Source: Gemmatimonas sp.
GTDB lineage: Bacteria; Gemmatimonadota; Gemmatimonadetes; Gemmatimonadales; Gemmatimonadaceae
Length of the DNA: 64,000 bases
Direction of reading: 5' to 3'
Assembly: GCA_011390885.1 (NCBI GenBank)
Contig: JAABRO010000008.1
Span: 18,397-82,396, forward strand
In this document: positions 4,382 to 49,968 of the stretch, in pieces
Layout: each line of letters opens with the position of its first letter
Numbering within the stretch: the first letter of the stretch is position 1
The notes under the pieces: model-generated
Databases searched by the model: none
The model's input: only the letters and a program-made list of their open reading frames with translations
What the model was told of the DNA's origin: nothing
Translations under genes and position numbers: made by a program

Positions 4382-5044
4382 ATGATCGCTCCTGCAACCC
4401 CCGTAGCCCGCGCGTACGATCGCTGGGCCGCCACCTACGACACGGCTCCCAATCGCACGCGCGACCTCGACGCCGAGATCCTGCGTGCGCACGGGCCGGA
4501 GCTGCGCGGCCACGTCGTGCTCGAGCTGGGGGGCGGCACCGGCAAGAACACCACCTGGCTCGCCTCGCGTGCGTCGCGGCTGATCTCGCTCGACCTCTCC
4601 CCCGAGATGCAGGCGCTGGCGCAGGCGCGCGTTGCCGAGCTCGGCCTGCCCGAGGATCGCGTTTCCTTCCTGCTGCACGACCTGCGCGAGCGCTGGCCGC
4701 TCGAGGACGAGTCGGTGGAGATGGTCGTGGGCAACCTCGTGCTCGAGCACGTCGAGGAACTCGCGCCGGTGTTCCGCGAGGCGGCCCGGGTGCTCAAGCC
4801 CGGCGGCACACTCTGGGTCTCGGAGTTGCACCCCGAGCGTCAGCGCCGCGGCGCGCAGGCGCACTTCGCCGACGCGATCACCGGCGAGGTGGTGCGCGTG
4901 CCCGCGTTCCGGCACACGGTGAGCGAGTACGTGAACGCGGCCATCGCCGCCGGGCTGCGCGTGCGCCGGCTCGGCGAGTGGATCGAGGACGGCGCCGAGC
5001 CCGACGCGCCACCTCGGCTGTTCACCATGCGCGCCAAGCGCTGA
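4382..5044 (+). CDS. Class I SAM-dependent methyltransferase
   Basis: 220 residues with the Methyltransf_11-type fold: motif I is VVLELGGGTGKNT (about residues 44-56), the acidic end of strand 2 is in LISLDLSPEM, motif II/III corresponds to VGNLVLEHVEEL, and the post-motif is LKPGGTLWVSELHP. This arrangement resembles small-molecule methyltransferases of the UbiE/BioC class, but the substrate cannot be deduced. The chosen ATG is supported by the TATGCT box 5 nt upstream. It is transcribed divergently from the spermidine-synthase-like gene, and the next gene on the same strand is an unrelated transporter. Confidence 0.85.
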   Translation: MIAPATPVARAYDRWAATYDTAPNRTRDLDAEILRAHGPELRGHVVLELGGGTGKNTTWLASRASRLISLDLSPEMQALAQARVAELGLPEDRVSFLLHDLRERWPLEDESVEMVVGNLVLEHVEELAPVFREAARVLKPGGTLWVSELHPERQRRGAQAHFADAITGEVVRVPAFRHTVSEYVNAAIAAGLRVRRLGEWIEDGAEPDAPPRLFTMRAKR

Positions 5045-5063
5045 GCGGAGCCACGCGGCCGGG

Positions 5064-5091
5064 TTCGACGGCGCGGGTGATTGCGTAGCTT
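5064..5091 (+). promoter_or_regulatory. Putative promoter of the SulP gene
   Basis: TTCGAC (5064-5069) and TAGCTT (5086-5091) are separated by 16 bp. The -10 is preceded by gcg, giving gcgTAGCTT, a string also found before other genes in this window (58.3 and 60.8 kb). The predicted leader to the GTG at 5133 is about 35 nt. Confidence 0.4.
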
Positions 5092-5132
5092 GCAGCAGGA
5101 CGGCCACGCGACCCCTCGACCCGAGGCACCCG

Positions 5133-6929
5133 GTGGGCAGGACCCGATACGACAGGGATGATGGCGCATCGTCGACGCGGCTTCGTCCCGCGTCGGCCCT
5201 TCGTGCCGTGCTCCGCGAGGGATACGGCGTGGCGGATTTCCGCCACGATCTGGGGGCTGGCCTCGTGGTGGGGATCGTGGCGCTGCCACTGGCGATGGCG
5301 CTCGGGATCGGGGTGGGCGTGGCGCCCCAGCACGGCCTCTACACGGCCATCGTGGCGGGCTTCGCGGTGGCCGCGCTCGGCGGGTCGCGCCTGCAGGTCA
5401 CCGGCCCCACGGCCGCGTTCATCGTGATCCTCGCCCCCATTCACCAGCAGTTCGGCATGCGCGGGCTGCTGCTCGCCGGCATGCTCGCCGGCCTCATGCT
5501 GATCGGCATGGGGATCGCGCGGCTGGGGCGGCTGATCGAGTTCATTCCGCACCCCGTCACGACGGGATTCACGGCGGGCATCGGCACGGTCATCGCCGTG
5601 CTGCAGCTCAAGGACGTGTTCGGGCTCACGCTGGCCAGCCAGCCGGTGCACTTCCACGAGCGCGTGCTCGCCCTGGTCGAGGCGCGCGGCACGGTGAACG
5701 GCTGGGAGGTGCTCATCGCGGCGCTCACGCTGACCCTGCTGCTCGTCCTGCCGAAGGTCACGCGTCGCGTGCCGGCGCCGCTGCTCGCCCTGCCGGCCGC
5801 GGCGCTCGCGGCGTGGGCGCTGACCCACTTCGTGAGCGGCGTCGAGATCGCCACGATCGCCAGTCGCTTCGAGACCCTGGTGGGCGGGCGCCCGGTGCAG
5901 GGCATCCCGTCACTGCCGCCCCAGCTGCTCTTCCCCTGGAGCGCGCCGGGCGTGGCGGCGAGTGGTGCCGAAGCGCCGCTCGACTTCGCACTCATTCGCG
6001 CCCTGCTGCCCAGCGCGTTCGCGATCGCGATGCTCGGCGCCATCGAATCCCTGTTGTCCGCCGTGGTGGCCGACGGCATGGCCAACACGCGACACGACCC
6101 GGACGCCGAGCTGCTGGCGCTCGGCATCGGCAACGTGGTCACGCCGTTCTTCGGTGGCATTCCGGCCACGGGGGCGATCGCGCGCACGGCCACGAACGTG
6201 CGCTCCGGGGCCCGCTCCCCGATCGCTGCCATGCTCCACGCCATCGTGATCCTCGTGGCCGTGCTGGCGCTCGCGCCCGCGCTCGGCTACCTGCCCATGT
6301 CCGCGCTGGCCGCGCTGCTGCTGCTGGTCGCGTGGAACATGTCGGAGGCCAAGCACTTCCTGCACATCGTGCGCGTGGCGCCGCGCAGTGACGTGCTCGT
6401 GCTGCTCGCCTGCTTCGGGCTCACCGTGGCGTTCGACATGGTCGTGGGCGTGTCGGTGGGTCTCGTGCTCGCGTCGTTCCTCTTCATGCGTCGCATGGCC
6501 GAGGTCACGCAGGCCACGCTGGTGTCGGGGACGCATCCCGCACTGCCGGAGAACGTGCCAGCCGGGGTGGTGCTGTACGAGATCAGCGGTCCGCTCTTCT
6601 TCGGTGCGGCGCAGAAGGCGCTGGCCACCTTCGACATCGTACGAGGCCGCGCGCGTGCGGTGATCCTGCTCCTGGAGGAGGTGCATGCGATGGACGCCAC
6701 CGGGCTCGTGGCGCTGGAATCGGCGCTGCAGCCGTTGCGGGGCACGAACACCCTCGTGGTGCTCACCGGTGTGCGCGAGCAGCCGCGGCGCCTCATGGAG
6801 CGCGCGCAACTCGCGGACGGGGCCAGCGTGGTGCTGGTGCAGGACGTCGCCGAGGCAGTGGCGCGCGCCTCGGCGCATGTCGCTGCCGAGCGCGGTGAGG
6901 AGTCCCCGCCGATCGGGCGCGCCGTGTGA
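5133..6929 (+). CDS. SulP-family anion transporter with STAS domain
   Basis: 598 residues matching the SLC26/SulP family of sulfate, bicarbonate or dicarboxylate carriers. The N-terminal transmembrane domain starts near residue 38 (AGLVVGIVALPLAMALGIG), with the signature VTGPTAAFIVIL, and covers about 430 residues. A cytoplasmic C-terminal STAS domain follows (from about residue 465), with the loop EEVHAMDATGLVALESAL at the usual regulatory position. The transported anion is not evident: no carbonic anhydrase or sulfur-assimilation gene is adjacent. The GTG start at 5133 gives a plausible cytoplasmic N-terminus; nearby downstream starts are also possible. Confidence 0.9.
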   Translation: MGRTRYDRDDGASSTRLRPASALRAVLREGYGVADFRHDLGAGLVVGIVALPLAMALGIGVGVAPQHGLYTAIVAGFAVAALGGSRLQVTGPTAAFIVILAPIHQQFGMRGLLLAGMLAGLMLIGMGIARLGRLIEFIPHPVTTGFTAGIGTVIAVLQLKDVFGLTLASQPVHFHERVLALVEARGTVNGWEVLIAALTLTLLLVLPKVTRRVPAPLLALPAAALAAWALTHFVSGVEIATIASRFETLVGGRPVQGIPSLPPQLLFPWSAPGVAASGAEAPLDFALIRALLPSAFAIAMLGAIESLLSAVVADGMANTRHDPDAELLALGIGNVVTPFFGGIPATGAIARTATNVRSGARSPIAAMLHAIVILVAVLALAPALGYLPMSALAALLLLVAWNMSEAKHFLHIVRVAPRSDVLVLLACFGLTVAFDMVVGVSVGLVLASFLFMRRMAEVTQATLVSGTHPALPENVPAGVVLYEISGPLFFGAAQKALATFDIVRGRARAVILLLEEVHAMDATGLVALESALQPLRGTNTLVVLTGVREQPRRLMERAQLADGASVVLVQDVAEAVARASAHVAAERGEESPPIGRAV

Positions 6930-27734: not shown

Positions 27735-27877
27735 GGCCAGACCGGTTACCGGTGACGGTCCACTGTTGCCGATCAACCCGCTGTCCCGTCGCGGGCCGAC
27801 GCATCGGGTGATCCGTCGCGCCGGGCACGGATCGTGTACTCGGCAACAGTGAACCGTTCTCGGTGATCGGTCTGGCC
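27735..27877. repeat. Long palindromic intergenic element (copy A)
   Basis: A 38-nt arm (27735-27772) pairs with 27840-27877 at 32 of 38 positions, enclosing a 67-nt centre. The centre contains gggccgacgcat (27793-27804), shared exactly with copy B, followed by a gtgatccgtcgcg...gcacgg segment that resembles copy D. It starts 67 bp after the prfC stop. There is no ORF that I believe and no T-run. Confidence 0.8.
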
Positions 27878-27915
27878 TTCCGCAGTTTCCCGGCTCACTG
27901 CTGGCGATCATCCGA

Positions 27916-27921
27916 TACAGT
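27916..27921 (+). promoter_or_regulatory. -10 box of the following exported protein
   Basis: TACAGT lies 7 nt before the ATG at 27929, giving a leaderless or near-leaderless transcript. It sits just beyond the outer edge of palindromic copy A. Confidence 0.4.
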
Positions 27922-27928
27922 CCACGCC

Positions 27929-28576
27929 ATGCGAGAAAACGTCCGTACAGTGCTTGTGCGCCTCGTCGCGCTCTGTTCGCTCGTCGCGCTCGTCGCAGCG
28001 ATCGGTGTCGCGCCGCTCTCCGCGCAGCCACCGACCAGCACTACTTGGTCCCTGCAGGATCTCGCGCAACGCCTGATGCCGGCGTTCCCCGATCGCACGT
28101 GCCGCGACGAGCGGGAGCCCGTCATCGAGCAGATGGTGCGCCGCTGCTATCTGCGACGCGGTCCAAGCGGGACCGACACGCTGGAACTGCTCTTCGAGTT
28201 CAACGACTCGCTCACCGGCGTCTACTGGTGGAATCGACGCTTCGACGACGATGTGAGCGCCGCGCGGTTCGTCGACTCGCTCGCCGTCGATCTTGCGGGC
28301 GCCCGATTCGAACGCTGGAAGTGTCCGCCCGACTCTGGGAACGGATTCACGATTCGGACACACATGTGGACCGGTCCAGGCGCGAGTGTGAGGCTTGGTC
28401 TGACCCGGCGTGAGCAGGCGTCGTGGCGGCTCAGCCTGTCGTTCCTCGACGACCCGAGCGGCTCTGCGCGCGAAGCATTCTGCCCCCTGGGAGAGAAGCT
28501 GCCTGAGTCGCCCGGCCGTCGGAGTGGGCTCGTCATGGTGCCGTTCGCGGTGAGCCGAGCAACATCGGGCCAGTGA
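27929..28576 (+). CDS. Exported hypothetical protein
   Basis: 215 residues from the ATG at 27929. A signal peptide is clear (LVRLVALCSLVALVAAIGVAP then LSAQ). The mature part has no family I recognise; it has four cysteines, of which Cys in RTCRDE, RRCYLR, WKCPPD and AFCPLG could form disulfides in the periplasm. It is flanked on both sides by palindromic elements A and B and appears to be a single-gene unit. An upstream in-frame start at 27863 would pass through the repeat arm and is less likely. Confidence 0.7.
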   Translation: MRENVRTVLVRLVALCSLVALVAAIGVAPLSAQPPTSTTWSLQDLAQRLMPAFPDRTCRDEREPVIEQMVRRCYLRRGPSGTDTLELLFEFNDSLTGVYWWNRRFDDDVSAARFVDSLAVDLAGARFERWKCPPDSGNGFTIRTHMWTGPGASVRLGLTRREQASWRLSLSFLDDPSGSAREAFCPLGEKLPESPGRRSGLVMVPFAVSRATSGQ

Positions 28577-28600
28577 CCTTTCACGTACAGTGGCCTTCGG

Positions 28601-28754
28601 GCCGCGGTCAGACCGATCACCGACGACGGTCTACTGTTGCGGAACGACTAGCAGTTCTGGCGTGGGCCGACGCATGGCGTGAGGTGCGGCGAGAGGCACG
28701 GGCCGTGTAGTCGGCCGCGGTAGACCGTACACGGTAGTCGGTCTGGCCTGCGGC
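28601..28754. repeat. Long palindromic intergenic element (copy B)
   Basis: The left arm (28601-28642) is complementary to the right arm (28715-28754) with mismatches; the best block (cagaccga, accg, acggtctac) is retained in both. The centre carries gggccgacgcat at 28664-28675, identical to copy A. It fills the convergent gap between the exported protein and the oxidoreductase gene. Arm sequences differ from copy A at many sites although pairing is kept. Confidence 0.75.
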
Positions 28755-28801: not shown

Positions 28802-29818
28802 TCAACCCGCCGCGATCCGAACCCCCACCTTCCCCGCGACGTCGTTGCTCTCGAGCAGCGCATGCGCGGCCGCGAGCTCCTCGAGCGGATACGCGGCGGC
28901 CATCGGAAGCCGAACGCGCCCGCTGGCCAGCAACGGCACCACCTCCTCCACGAACGCCCGCGTGTACGCCACCCGCTCGTCGAGCCCGCGTGACCGCAGC
29001 ACCGTGCCCGTGATCTGCAGCCGCCGCGTGAGCACACGGCCCAGGTCCACCTCGGCCGTCCGCCCCGCCAGCAGCCCGATCAGCACCAGCCGGCCGCGTG
29101 GTGCCATGGCGCGCACACTCTCCCCCACGTAGGCCCCGCCCACGAGATCCAGCACCACGTCGGCGCCGTGGCCTTCGGTCTCCGCCATCACCGCGTCGGC
29201 GAAGATCGGCCCCCCCTCGGCGTCACGCTCCGGCACGATGCCGGTCACGAGCCCGAGCCCGCGCGCCGCCTCGAGCTTGGCCGTCGAGCGCGCCGTGCCG
29301 ATCGGCACCCCGCCGAGCGCGCGTACGAGCTGCACGGCGGCCAGCCCGACGCCGCTCCCCGCGGCGTGAATGAGCACCCGCTCACCGGGCGCGAAGCGGG
29401 CCTGTCGCAGCGCGTCGTGCGCCGTGATGCACGCCTCGGGGAGCGCGCCGGCGTCGGTCAGCGACAGCGCATCAGGCACGCGGGCGAGCGTCTCCGCGTG
29501 CGTGACCAGGAACTCGGCATGCGCCCCGCCGGGCACGAGCCCGAAGACGCGGTCACCCGGCTGCCAGGCCGCGACGCCCGGCGCGACGGCTTCCACCACC
29601 CCCGCGAACTCGAGCCCGGGAATGTCGGCCGGCACGCCGGGCGGCGCCGGGTAGCGGCCGGCGCGCTGCACGAGGTCGGCGCGGTTGAGGGCGGAGGCGA
29701 CCACGCGCACGAGCACCCCGTGCGGCACGTCGGTCGCCGCTGGTCGTGGTCGGTGCTGGATCTCCAACACCTCCGGTCCGCCGGGGCGGGTGATGACGGC
29801 GGCGCGCATGTCGGGCAT
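28802..29818 (-). CDS. Quinone oxidoreductase-like medium-chain dehydrogenase (PIG3 type)
   Basis: 338 residues from the ATG at 29818 (MPDMRAAV). The GroES-like domain has LNRADLVQRAGRYPAPPG, typical of the PIG3/TP53I3 branch of NADPH:quinone oxidoreductases, and the Rossmann nucleotide site is LIHAAGSGVGLAAVQL (about 141-156). Catalytic zinc ligands are absent, as expected for this branch. It would reduce quinones or alpha,beta-unsaturated carbonyls with NADPH. It is divergent from the TetR/RND locus with a 146-bp shared upstream region, so that regulator might also control it. Confidence 0.88.
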   Translation of the reverse strand: MPDMRAAVITRPGGPEVLEIQHRPRPAATDVPHGVLVRVVASALNRADLVQRAGRYPAPPGVPADIPGLEFAGVVEAVAPGVAAWQPGDRVFGLVPGGAHAEFLVTHAETLARVPDALSLTDAGALPEACITAHDALRQARFAPGERVLIHAAGSGVGLAAVQLVRALGGVPIGTARSTAKLEAARGLGLVTGIVPERDAEGGPIFADAVMAETEGHGADVVLDLVGGAYVGESVRAMAPRGRLVLIGLLAGRTAEVDLGRVLTRRLQITGTVLRSRGLDERVAYTRAFVEEVVPLLASGRVRLPMAAAYPLEELAAAHALLESNDVAGKVGVRIAAG

Positions 29819-29927
29819 TCGGTCGGGCTCTTGGGAAATGGACCATCGGGCTCGGGGCACGAACCCGGGCAAGTTCGCATTGAACAGAGAGCGACGAAAG
29901 CAGACCGGGCTCGACAGTAAGTACCCA

Positions 29928-29957
29928 CTTGCGCGCAAGCGAGTGCTTGCATACTAT
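29928..29957 (+). promoter_or_regulatory. Promoter and operator of the TetR/RND locus
   Basis: A -35 TTGCGC (29929-29934) and -10 TACTAT (29952-29957) are 17 bp apart, and the -10 is 7 nt before the ATG. A perfect 12-bp palindrome cttgcgcgcaag (29928-29939) covers the -35, and a second inverted repeat gcaagc-gagt-gcttgc (29935-29950) fills the spacer. These overlapping half-sites are the likely binding site of the TetR protein. Confidence 0.65.
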
Positions 29958-48845: not shown

Positions 48846-49001
48846 GTTGCACCCCCGAAGCTCGCGGCTCGCGGCTAGCCGCTCGGGTCCGTTCCGAGTG
48901 ATCCTCGCGATGAGCACGGCCGGTAGCCCCAACAAGTTGCCGAGATCACGCGACACGGACCCGAGCGGCTAGCCTCGAGCTTCGAGTCTCGTGGGTTCAA
49001 C
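48846..49001. repeat. Long palindromic intergenic element (copy D)
   Basis: A 47-nt left arm (48846-48892) pairs with 48955-49001 at 40 of 47 positions. The arms include a repeated gctcg-rich word. The 62-nt centre carries gtgatcctcgcgatgagcacgg, similar to the centre of copy A. It fills the gap between convergent genes, and the last five bases of the right arm run into the phzF stop region (48997). Confidence 0.8.
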
Positions 49002-49968
49002 TGCGCGGCAAGGGCAACCGCATGGTTCCTTCCGACACCACCACGCTGGCCCCGCCAACCCGCACGGCCCTCACCGCGCCCTGCGTCTTGTCCGCCTCGA
49101 TCTCCAACCGGCTCGGACGCCCCATCTCCACGCCCTGCGCCACGCGCCAGCGCAGCGTCCCATCGCGCGGCGTGCGCGCCGCCAGGTACCCTGCGAGGCA
49201 GGCATTGGCCGAACCCGTGGCCGGGTCTTCCGGCACCGACAGCCCGGGCACGAACACGCGCGCGCGGATGTCCGCGTCGAGCAGCGACGCGGGCAGATCC
49301 GCCCGCTCCGCCTCGTCGCGCACGAGCGCGAACACCAGCGGCTCCGATGCCCACGCGCCGCGCAGGTGCGCGTCCCACGCGTCCATGCGCACGCGCGCGC
49401 GCCGCACCGCGTCCACCGAGGCGAGCGGCACTACCAGGAACGGCAGCCCGCACGACACGCCCGCGGGCCTGTGCGTGCCGCCCACGAAGTCGTGTGGCGC
49501 GAGGCCGAGCACGTCGGCGAGCGCCTCGATGCTCGGCACGCCCTCGGTGCGCTCCTCGGGCAGCTGCGCCGTGGTGAGCTGCGCGCGTACGGGCAGGCCG
49601 TTCTCGCACCATACGCGCACCGGCACTGGCCCCACGTTCTCGCCGAGCACGAGCTGCATCACGGCCGTGCCGCCGTCGTCGGCGTTCGTGCGCACGCGCC
49701 CGGTGGCCACGAGCACGTGCGCCGTGCCGATCGTGGGGTGTCCCGCGAAGGGCACCTCGCCGCCTGGCGTGAAGATGCGCACACGGCGCGTGGTGCCCTC
49801 CGTCTCGGGCGCGAACACGAAGGTGGTCTCGGAGTAGTTGAACTCGCGCGTGATCGCGAGCAGCGTCTCGCTGGGCAGCCCCTCGGCGTCGAACACGACG
49901 GCGAGCTGGTTGCCCGCGAGCGGCGTGTCGGTGAACACGTCGCAGGTCACGAATCGCAGCGTGCGCAT
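48997..49968 (-). CDS. PhzF-family isomerase/epimerase
   Basis: 323 residues from the ATG at 49968, with GGAG 8 nt upstream inside the pruA stop region. PhzF-like landmarks are CDVFTDTPLAGNQLAVV at the N-terminus, the catalytic Glu in NYSETTFV (about residue 46), PFAGHPTIGTAHVL, and EDPATGSANACLAGYL near 240. The fold is that of phenazine biosynthesis PhzF and diaminopimelate-epimerase-like isomerases. No other phenazine genes are present, so the substrate is unknown. It is 5 bp downstream of pruA, so both share a transcript. Confidence 0.87.
   Translation of the reverse strand: MRTLRFVTCDVFTDTPLAGNQLAVVFDAEGLPSETLLAITREFNYSETTFVFAPETEGTTRRVRIFTPGGEVPFAGHPTIGTAHVLVATGRVRTNADDGGTAVMQLVLGENVGPVPVRVWCENGLPVRAQLTTAQLPEERTEGVPSIEALADVLGLAPHDFVGGTHRPAGVSCGLPFLVVPLASVDAVRRARVRMDAWDAHLRGAWASEPLVFALVRDEAERADLPASLLDADIRARVFVPGLSVPEDPATGSANACLAGYLAARTPRDGTLRWRVAQGVEMGRPSRLEIEADKTQGAVRAVRVGGASVVVSEGTMRLPLPRS

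Follow-up and report, generated by a model that had tools for sequence, protein, structure and literature searches.

Heptad-phased palindromes behind genes in a Gemmatimonadaceae-like genome: a conserved core with spacers that do not co-vary

Introduction

Two long palindromes stand on either side of one small gene for an exported protein. Are they the borders of a mobile cassette, structures of RNA 3' ends, or something else? The locus lies in a stretch of 64,000 nt (the window) of contig C8, part of a Gemmatimonadaceae-like draft genome of 4.07 Mb which is 95% complete. The nearest named relatives by prfC are Gemmatimonadaceae MAGs, and a prfC search of GTDB contigs returned no genus-level relatives. 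The features of the window discussed here are the following.

1380-1475, no strand assigned: third copy of the A/B family, just past a predicted stop codon; covariance model 60.3 bits
26042-27667, plus strand: prfC (peptide chain release factor 3), upstream neighbour
27735-27877, no strand assigned: element A, a palindromic repeat whose heptad-phased arms (27735-27772, 27840-27877) enclose a 67-nt loop; covariance model 80.8 bits
27878-27921, plus strand: tail of A, outside the palindrome, resembling the tail of B and those of further copies; subtype NNCGGCGGCGGYCCGGCTCNTGGCGANC
27929-28576, plus strand: gene flanked by A and B; encodes an exported protein of 215 aa, family unassigned
28606-28748, no strand assigned: element B, a sister copy lying in the same orientation as A, with its arms at 28606-28643 and at 28711-28748 around a 67-nt loop; covariance model 72.8 bits
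28749-28790, plus strand: tail of B, outside the palindrome
28802-29938, minus strand: zinc-binding dehydrogenase/quinone oxidoreductase-like gene, here called qor, convergent neighbour
About 48848-49005: copy of a second palindrome family

Elements A and B at the prfC-qor locus

The initial annotation had reported two palindromes with pairing arms and an exact 12-mer shared by their centres, and both observations are confirmed. The arms are 38 nt long, and 32 of 38 positions pair in A (84% complementary) and 28 of 38 in B (74%). The 12-mer GGGCCGACGCAT is found as an exact match in both loops. A related gtgatcc...gcacgg stretch is likewise present in A (GTGATCCGTCGCGCCGGGCACGG) and B (GTGAGGTGCGGCGAGAGGCACGG), but it is shared only loosely. 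Overall, the two elements are direct repeats with 73% identity over 171 nt, and their likeness extends outward for about 45 nt beyond the 3' arm.

The arms had also been said to differ between copies while pairing within each copy. This does not hold for A and B, since the 3' arm of A pairs with the 5' arm of B at 84%, which equals the match to its own partner and exceeds the pairing between the two arms of B.

A dispersed family with heptad-phased arms

A search for further copies had been set in advance as a check, and at least 23 separate copies were found in the genome by a covariance model built from 15 aligned copies, a lower bound because scoring in this genome was limited to the best candidates. 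The window holds three of them: A, B and the one at 1380-1475, from which an additional heptad stretch runs on to about position 1520. Genome-wide counts derive from searches and sampled stretches. A degenerate arm pattern had 14 genome matches against none for the reversed pattern, and a second arm pattern had 40 against 2 for a control pattern. By these controls and by the covariance-model scores, the family signal is far above chance.

Contig C3 bears eight copies, and tandem copies occur at C3:97303/97446 and C3:110997/111110. Most other copies are single and are not paired around one gene. One copy is located at C18:17485-17587, about 4.6 kb from the integron-type integrase of contig C18. 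It went unreported by an unbiased hairpin finder, which is prone to overlook these elements, as their spacers are unpaired. A plain DNA similarity search of 99 relatives gave a single weak, unrelated-looking match outside the genome itself, and an Rfam search gave no match up to E = 1.

Read outward, the arm consensus is TCGGC-NNC-GGTNNAC-GGTNNAC-GGTNNNC-GGTCTGGCC, i.e., about four degenerate heptads. In the heptad unit, NNACSGT, the CSGT core is fixed and the spacers, 2-3 nt long, vary; the arm is usually capped by GGTCTGGCC. The conserved ends of the palindrome are GGCCAGACC and GGTCTGGCC. Outside the palindrome, two tail subtypes recur, GAGTGCGAGATCGCG and CGGCGGCGGYCCGGCTCNTGGCGA.

Conservation of sequence and lack of covariation

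Core and spacer differ strongly in conservation. Between copies, core columns are about 91% identical and spacer columns 34-41%, the core value being somewhat inflated, as 15 of the 23 copies were used to build the model and were first found by core-containing patterns. The same contrast is seen between A and B, where mismatches fall on 12 of 20 spacer positions and on 2 of 38 core positions. Tandem sister copies (L057a/b and L014a/b) show 11 differences, of which seven are in spacers, three in other columns and one in the core.

Arms that diverge while keeping their pairing had been taken to point to selection on structure. The spacers contradict this reading: within copies, 33 of 130 spacer positions form Watson-Crick pairs, against 39.7 +/- 4.3 after the 3' arms have been exchanged at random among copies. 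Over all stem positions, 341 Watson-Crick pairs are formed within copies and 341.5 after shuffling; whole-stem pairing is 77.5% against 77.0%, and no measure lies outside its shuffles. The covariation term of RNAalifold is +0.28, which is unfavourable. Covariation, on which the initial annotation had itself staked the structural reading, thus showed no excess over shuffled arms, and a co-varying RNA stem is rejected. The CSGT blocks stand in opposite orientation in the two arms and pair for that reason; the remaining positions do not pair. Within-copy pairing being no better than shuffled, the conserved feature is a sequence motif rather than a co-varying stem, and the arms are kept by sequence rather than by pairing. 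As a counterpoint, the core pair columns 25/70 are switched from C-G to G-C on both sides in three copies, which hints at some pairing constraint.

Position behind genes

All 23 copies are intergenic, and 17 of the 23 have a gene 3' end no more than 120 nt away. The 3' end is nearer than the 5' end for 18 of 23 copies, compared with 29 of 94 random placements in intergenic gaps (Fisher p = 7e-5), and convergent gaps hold 8 of 23 copies compared with 7 of 94 (p = 0.002). These positions depend on a home-made, codon-usage gene caller which may misplace some neighbouring genes. No T-run follows the stem in the flanks of the copies and no terminator was called there; some copies (L014, L056) have a separate, canonical terminator next to them. 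For these reasons the elements are not ordinary intrinsic terminators, and this identity is rejected.

The suggestion that the elements are RNA 3'-end structures is therefore borne out in position only. Terminators or exonuclease barriers whose pairing is itself selected would fit the location and the strong predicted folds (-94.3 kcal/mol for A and -87.5 kcal/mol for B). Such hairpins are nevertheless quite improbable: the shuffle tests, which found no covariation, had already weakened them, and the missing T-run and the separate terminators count further against them.

The gene between A and B

A Pfam search of the 215-aa protein gave no family. A homologous gene, 62-63% identical, is found in the closest sister genome (G002; prfC 86% identical), where it likewise stands next to a convergent qor; the covariance model detected neither A nor B at that locus. 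In G003 and G001, prfC and qor are separated by gene-free gaps of about 80 nt and about 320 nt, respectively. In the gap of G001 (C2, about 4954-5280, L369), hairpin-forming repeats of the 8-nt unit TCTCTGCG replace the heptad palindromes. G002 additionally carries, at C212:5660-6076 (L367), a partial duplicate of the prfC 3' end that is fused to the 3' end of a qor gene, several genes beyond the full prfC; this is a rearranged version of the prfC-qor gap.

That the gene might be a mobile cassette was one of the ideas initially put forward. With A and B as its borders, such a cassette could be integron attC-like or have been integrated via homologous palindromes. A and B are direct repeats and each other's closest copies, no such gene is present in the gap of G001 and G003, and the genome encodes an integron-type integrase (C18:22193-23131, L359; 382 bits, curated cut-off 265). 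However, no attC-like site was found near this integrase, and the attC boxes R'' (RYYYAAC) and R' (GTTRRRY) are not among the element ends GGCCAGACC and GGTCTGGCC, so that an integron cassette is rejected. Moreover, most other copies stand alone instead of in pairs around a gene, and the homologue in G002 sits beside qor with neither element, which makes the presence of the gene independent of the palindromes. A cassette bounded by A and B is thus very unlikely. The gene is patchy at the prfC-qor locus and belongs to a variable gap in its own right, not to a repeat-bounded cassette.

Age and spread in relatives

Spacers differ between copies at about 60-65% of sites. By comparison, fourfold sites of prfC differ by 33-47% between this genome and three sisters, i.e., between species of the genus. 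Spacer divergence thus exceeds the divergence between species, and the copies are not recent. In four other genomes of the genus, one of them only 64% complete, the family is absent or nearly so. The family would then either predate the genus and have been lost from its other members, or carry spacers that change unusually fast.

These data bear on a non-autonomous mobile palindrome (REPIN- or MITE-like) with its transposase in trans. Such an element would account for dispersed copies with two conserved tail subtypes outside the palindrome, for the tandem copies on contig C3 and for the absence or near absence from the sister genomes. It is unlikely all the same, as the copies are old by their spacers and no match to the Y1 transposase PF01797 (TnpA-REP) was found in the genome (G000, draft 95% complete).

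Among further genomes, the heptad pattern ACSGTNN has 280 matches in G049, 96 in G045 and 55 in G062 and is absent from most. When one site per genome was sampled, a clear heptad hairpin was present in 6 of 29 (score of at least 14, shuffled at most 12); heptad matches can thus also be plain direct arrays or due to chance. Other Gemmatimonadota carry hairpins of other short units, mostly behind genes (L085, L086, L087, L091, L096), with the units RCCCGYN in G040, GTACCGA in G088, ACCGTGG in G045 and TCGGTTN in G067. A relative assembled as a single contig (G051) has hairpins with the 9-nt unit GGCATCCRA (L279, L282, L290). In about 400 kb sampled from each of four genomes, the self-similarity of hairpin arms was raised at lag 7 in this genome and G045 and at lag 9 in G045 and G051; the arms of G040 showed no raised self-similarity at either lag.

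Passive heptameric simple-sequence repeats could give rise to a similar picture. Slippage would produce the arrays and template switching their inverted pairs, which would persist harmlessly at 3' ends, so that heptad slippage without function could be another source of phased arms. Two papers (PMC4679880, PMC4692102), both citing Mrazek 2007, describe heptamers as over-represented in many bacteria and ascribe them to slippage. The hairpins of other units in other Gemmatimonadota and the patchy distribution between species of one genus are in line with this explanation. Equal drift would erase core and spacer alike, though, and the very unequal decay of the two counts against it. Slippage alone would not predict conserved caps and tails either. 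Passive repeats are hence a possible but not a likely explanation.

Probable recognition of the core as the preferred explanation

A and B are members of a family of dispersed heptad palindromes at gene 3' ends, with a conserved core, spacers that do not co-vary and no cassette between them; on balance, the core is probably recognised by a protein. The family may have originated when heptamer units were duplicated and copied in inverted form, an origin already put forward for other heptameric repeats. As to function, we infer that recognition of their sequence by some factor is what now preserves the CSGT blocks. The recogniser would most likely be a putative protein that binds DNA or RNA and acts on the dyad where transcripts end, by analogy with REP elements. 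The spacers would drift because they are neither read nor required to pair.

A second palindrome family in the same genome

About 20 copies of a second family occur in the genome, with the heptad CTCGNGG and arms GAACCCACGAG...CTCGGGTCCGTTC. In this family the arms are alike within a copy and different between copies. At spacers, the arms match at 102 of 150 positions, against 72.8 +/- 6.5 when shuffled (p = 0.0001), and two copies have perfectly matching arms (42/42 and 52/52). The pattern fits homogenisation of the arms, recent inverted copying or selection for pairing. The gene-conversion process initially invoked for A and B fits this family rather than their own.

Comparison with known systems

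The closest described system is the inverted heptameric repeats of Xanthomonas (GGGAATC, or (GGGANTN)n). They form 70-75 inverted pairs per genome, mostly of about four units, and about 90% are intergenic (PMC4692102). They lie close behind the upstream gene, at a mean of 28 nt compared with 160 nt to the next gene (PMC4692102). The A/B family resembles them in its 7-nt unit with fixed and variable positions, in the number of units and in its intergenic inverted pairs near the end of the upstream gene. In contrast, the NNACSGT unit has at most GG in its core and no GGGA G-tract. The authors of PMC4692102 favour quadruplexes for the Xanthomonas unit, an idea which does not carry over to a unit without a G-tract. 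The A/B family further differs in its common caps and tails and in arms which demonstrably do not co-vary.

Like REP/BIME and REPIN elements, the A/B copies are dispersed extragenic palindromes behind genes, but they are much longer (about 90-160 nt) and heptad-phased. No GTAG-type or related tag was found in the flanks of the copies; with neither such a tag nor a PF01797 match, identity with REP/REPIN elements served by TnpA-REP is rejected. The TAACTGA heptamers of Beggiatoaceae and cyanobacteria occur as direct repeats immediately ahead of start codons (PMC4679880). They share with the A/B family intergenic heptamer units and a patchy phylogenetic spread, whereas the latter forms inverted pairs at gene ends.

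More broadly, many Gemmatimonadota genomes might possess their own dialects of inverted repeats behind genes. The fixed letters would be the recognition code of a co-evolving, genome-specific factor, and the spacers would drift or, in some families, be homogenised between the arms. This proposal is tentative, and we consider it unlikely rather than likely to hold in full. The dialects so read are short-period and mostly heptad: ACSGTNN and CTCGNGG in this genome, RCCCGYN in G040 and GTACCGA in G088.

Heptameric repeats are over-represented among the long simple repeats of many bacteria and have no established role; their function is left unsettled in PMC4692102 and PMC4679880 as well. The presence in one genome of a family that keeps its core and loses its spacers, beside a family whose arms match, separates recognition from pairing and arm homogenisation, and both can be tested.
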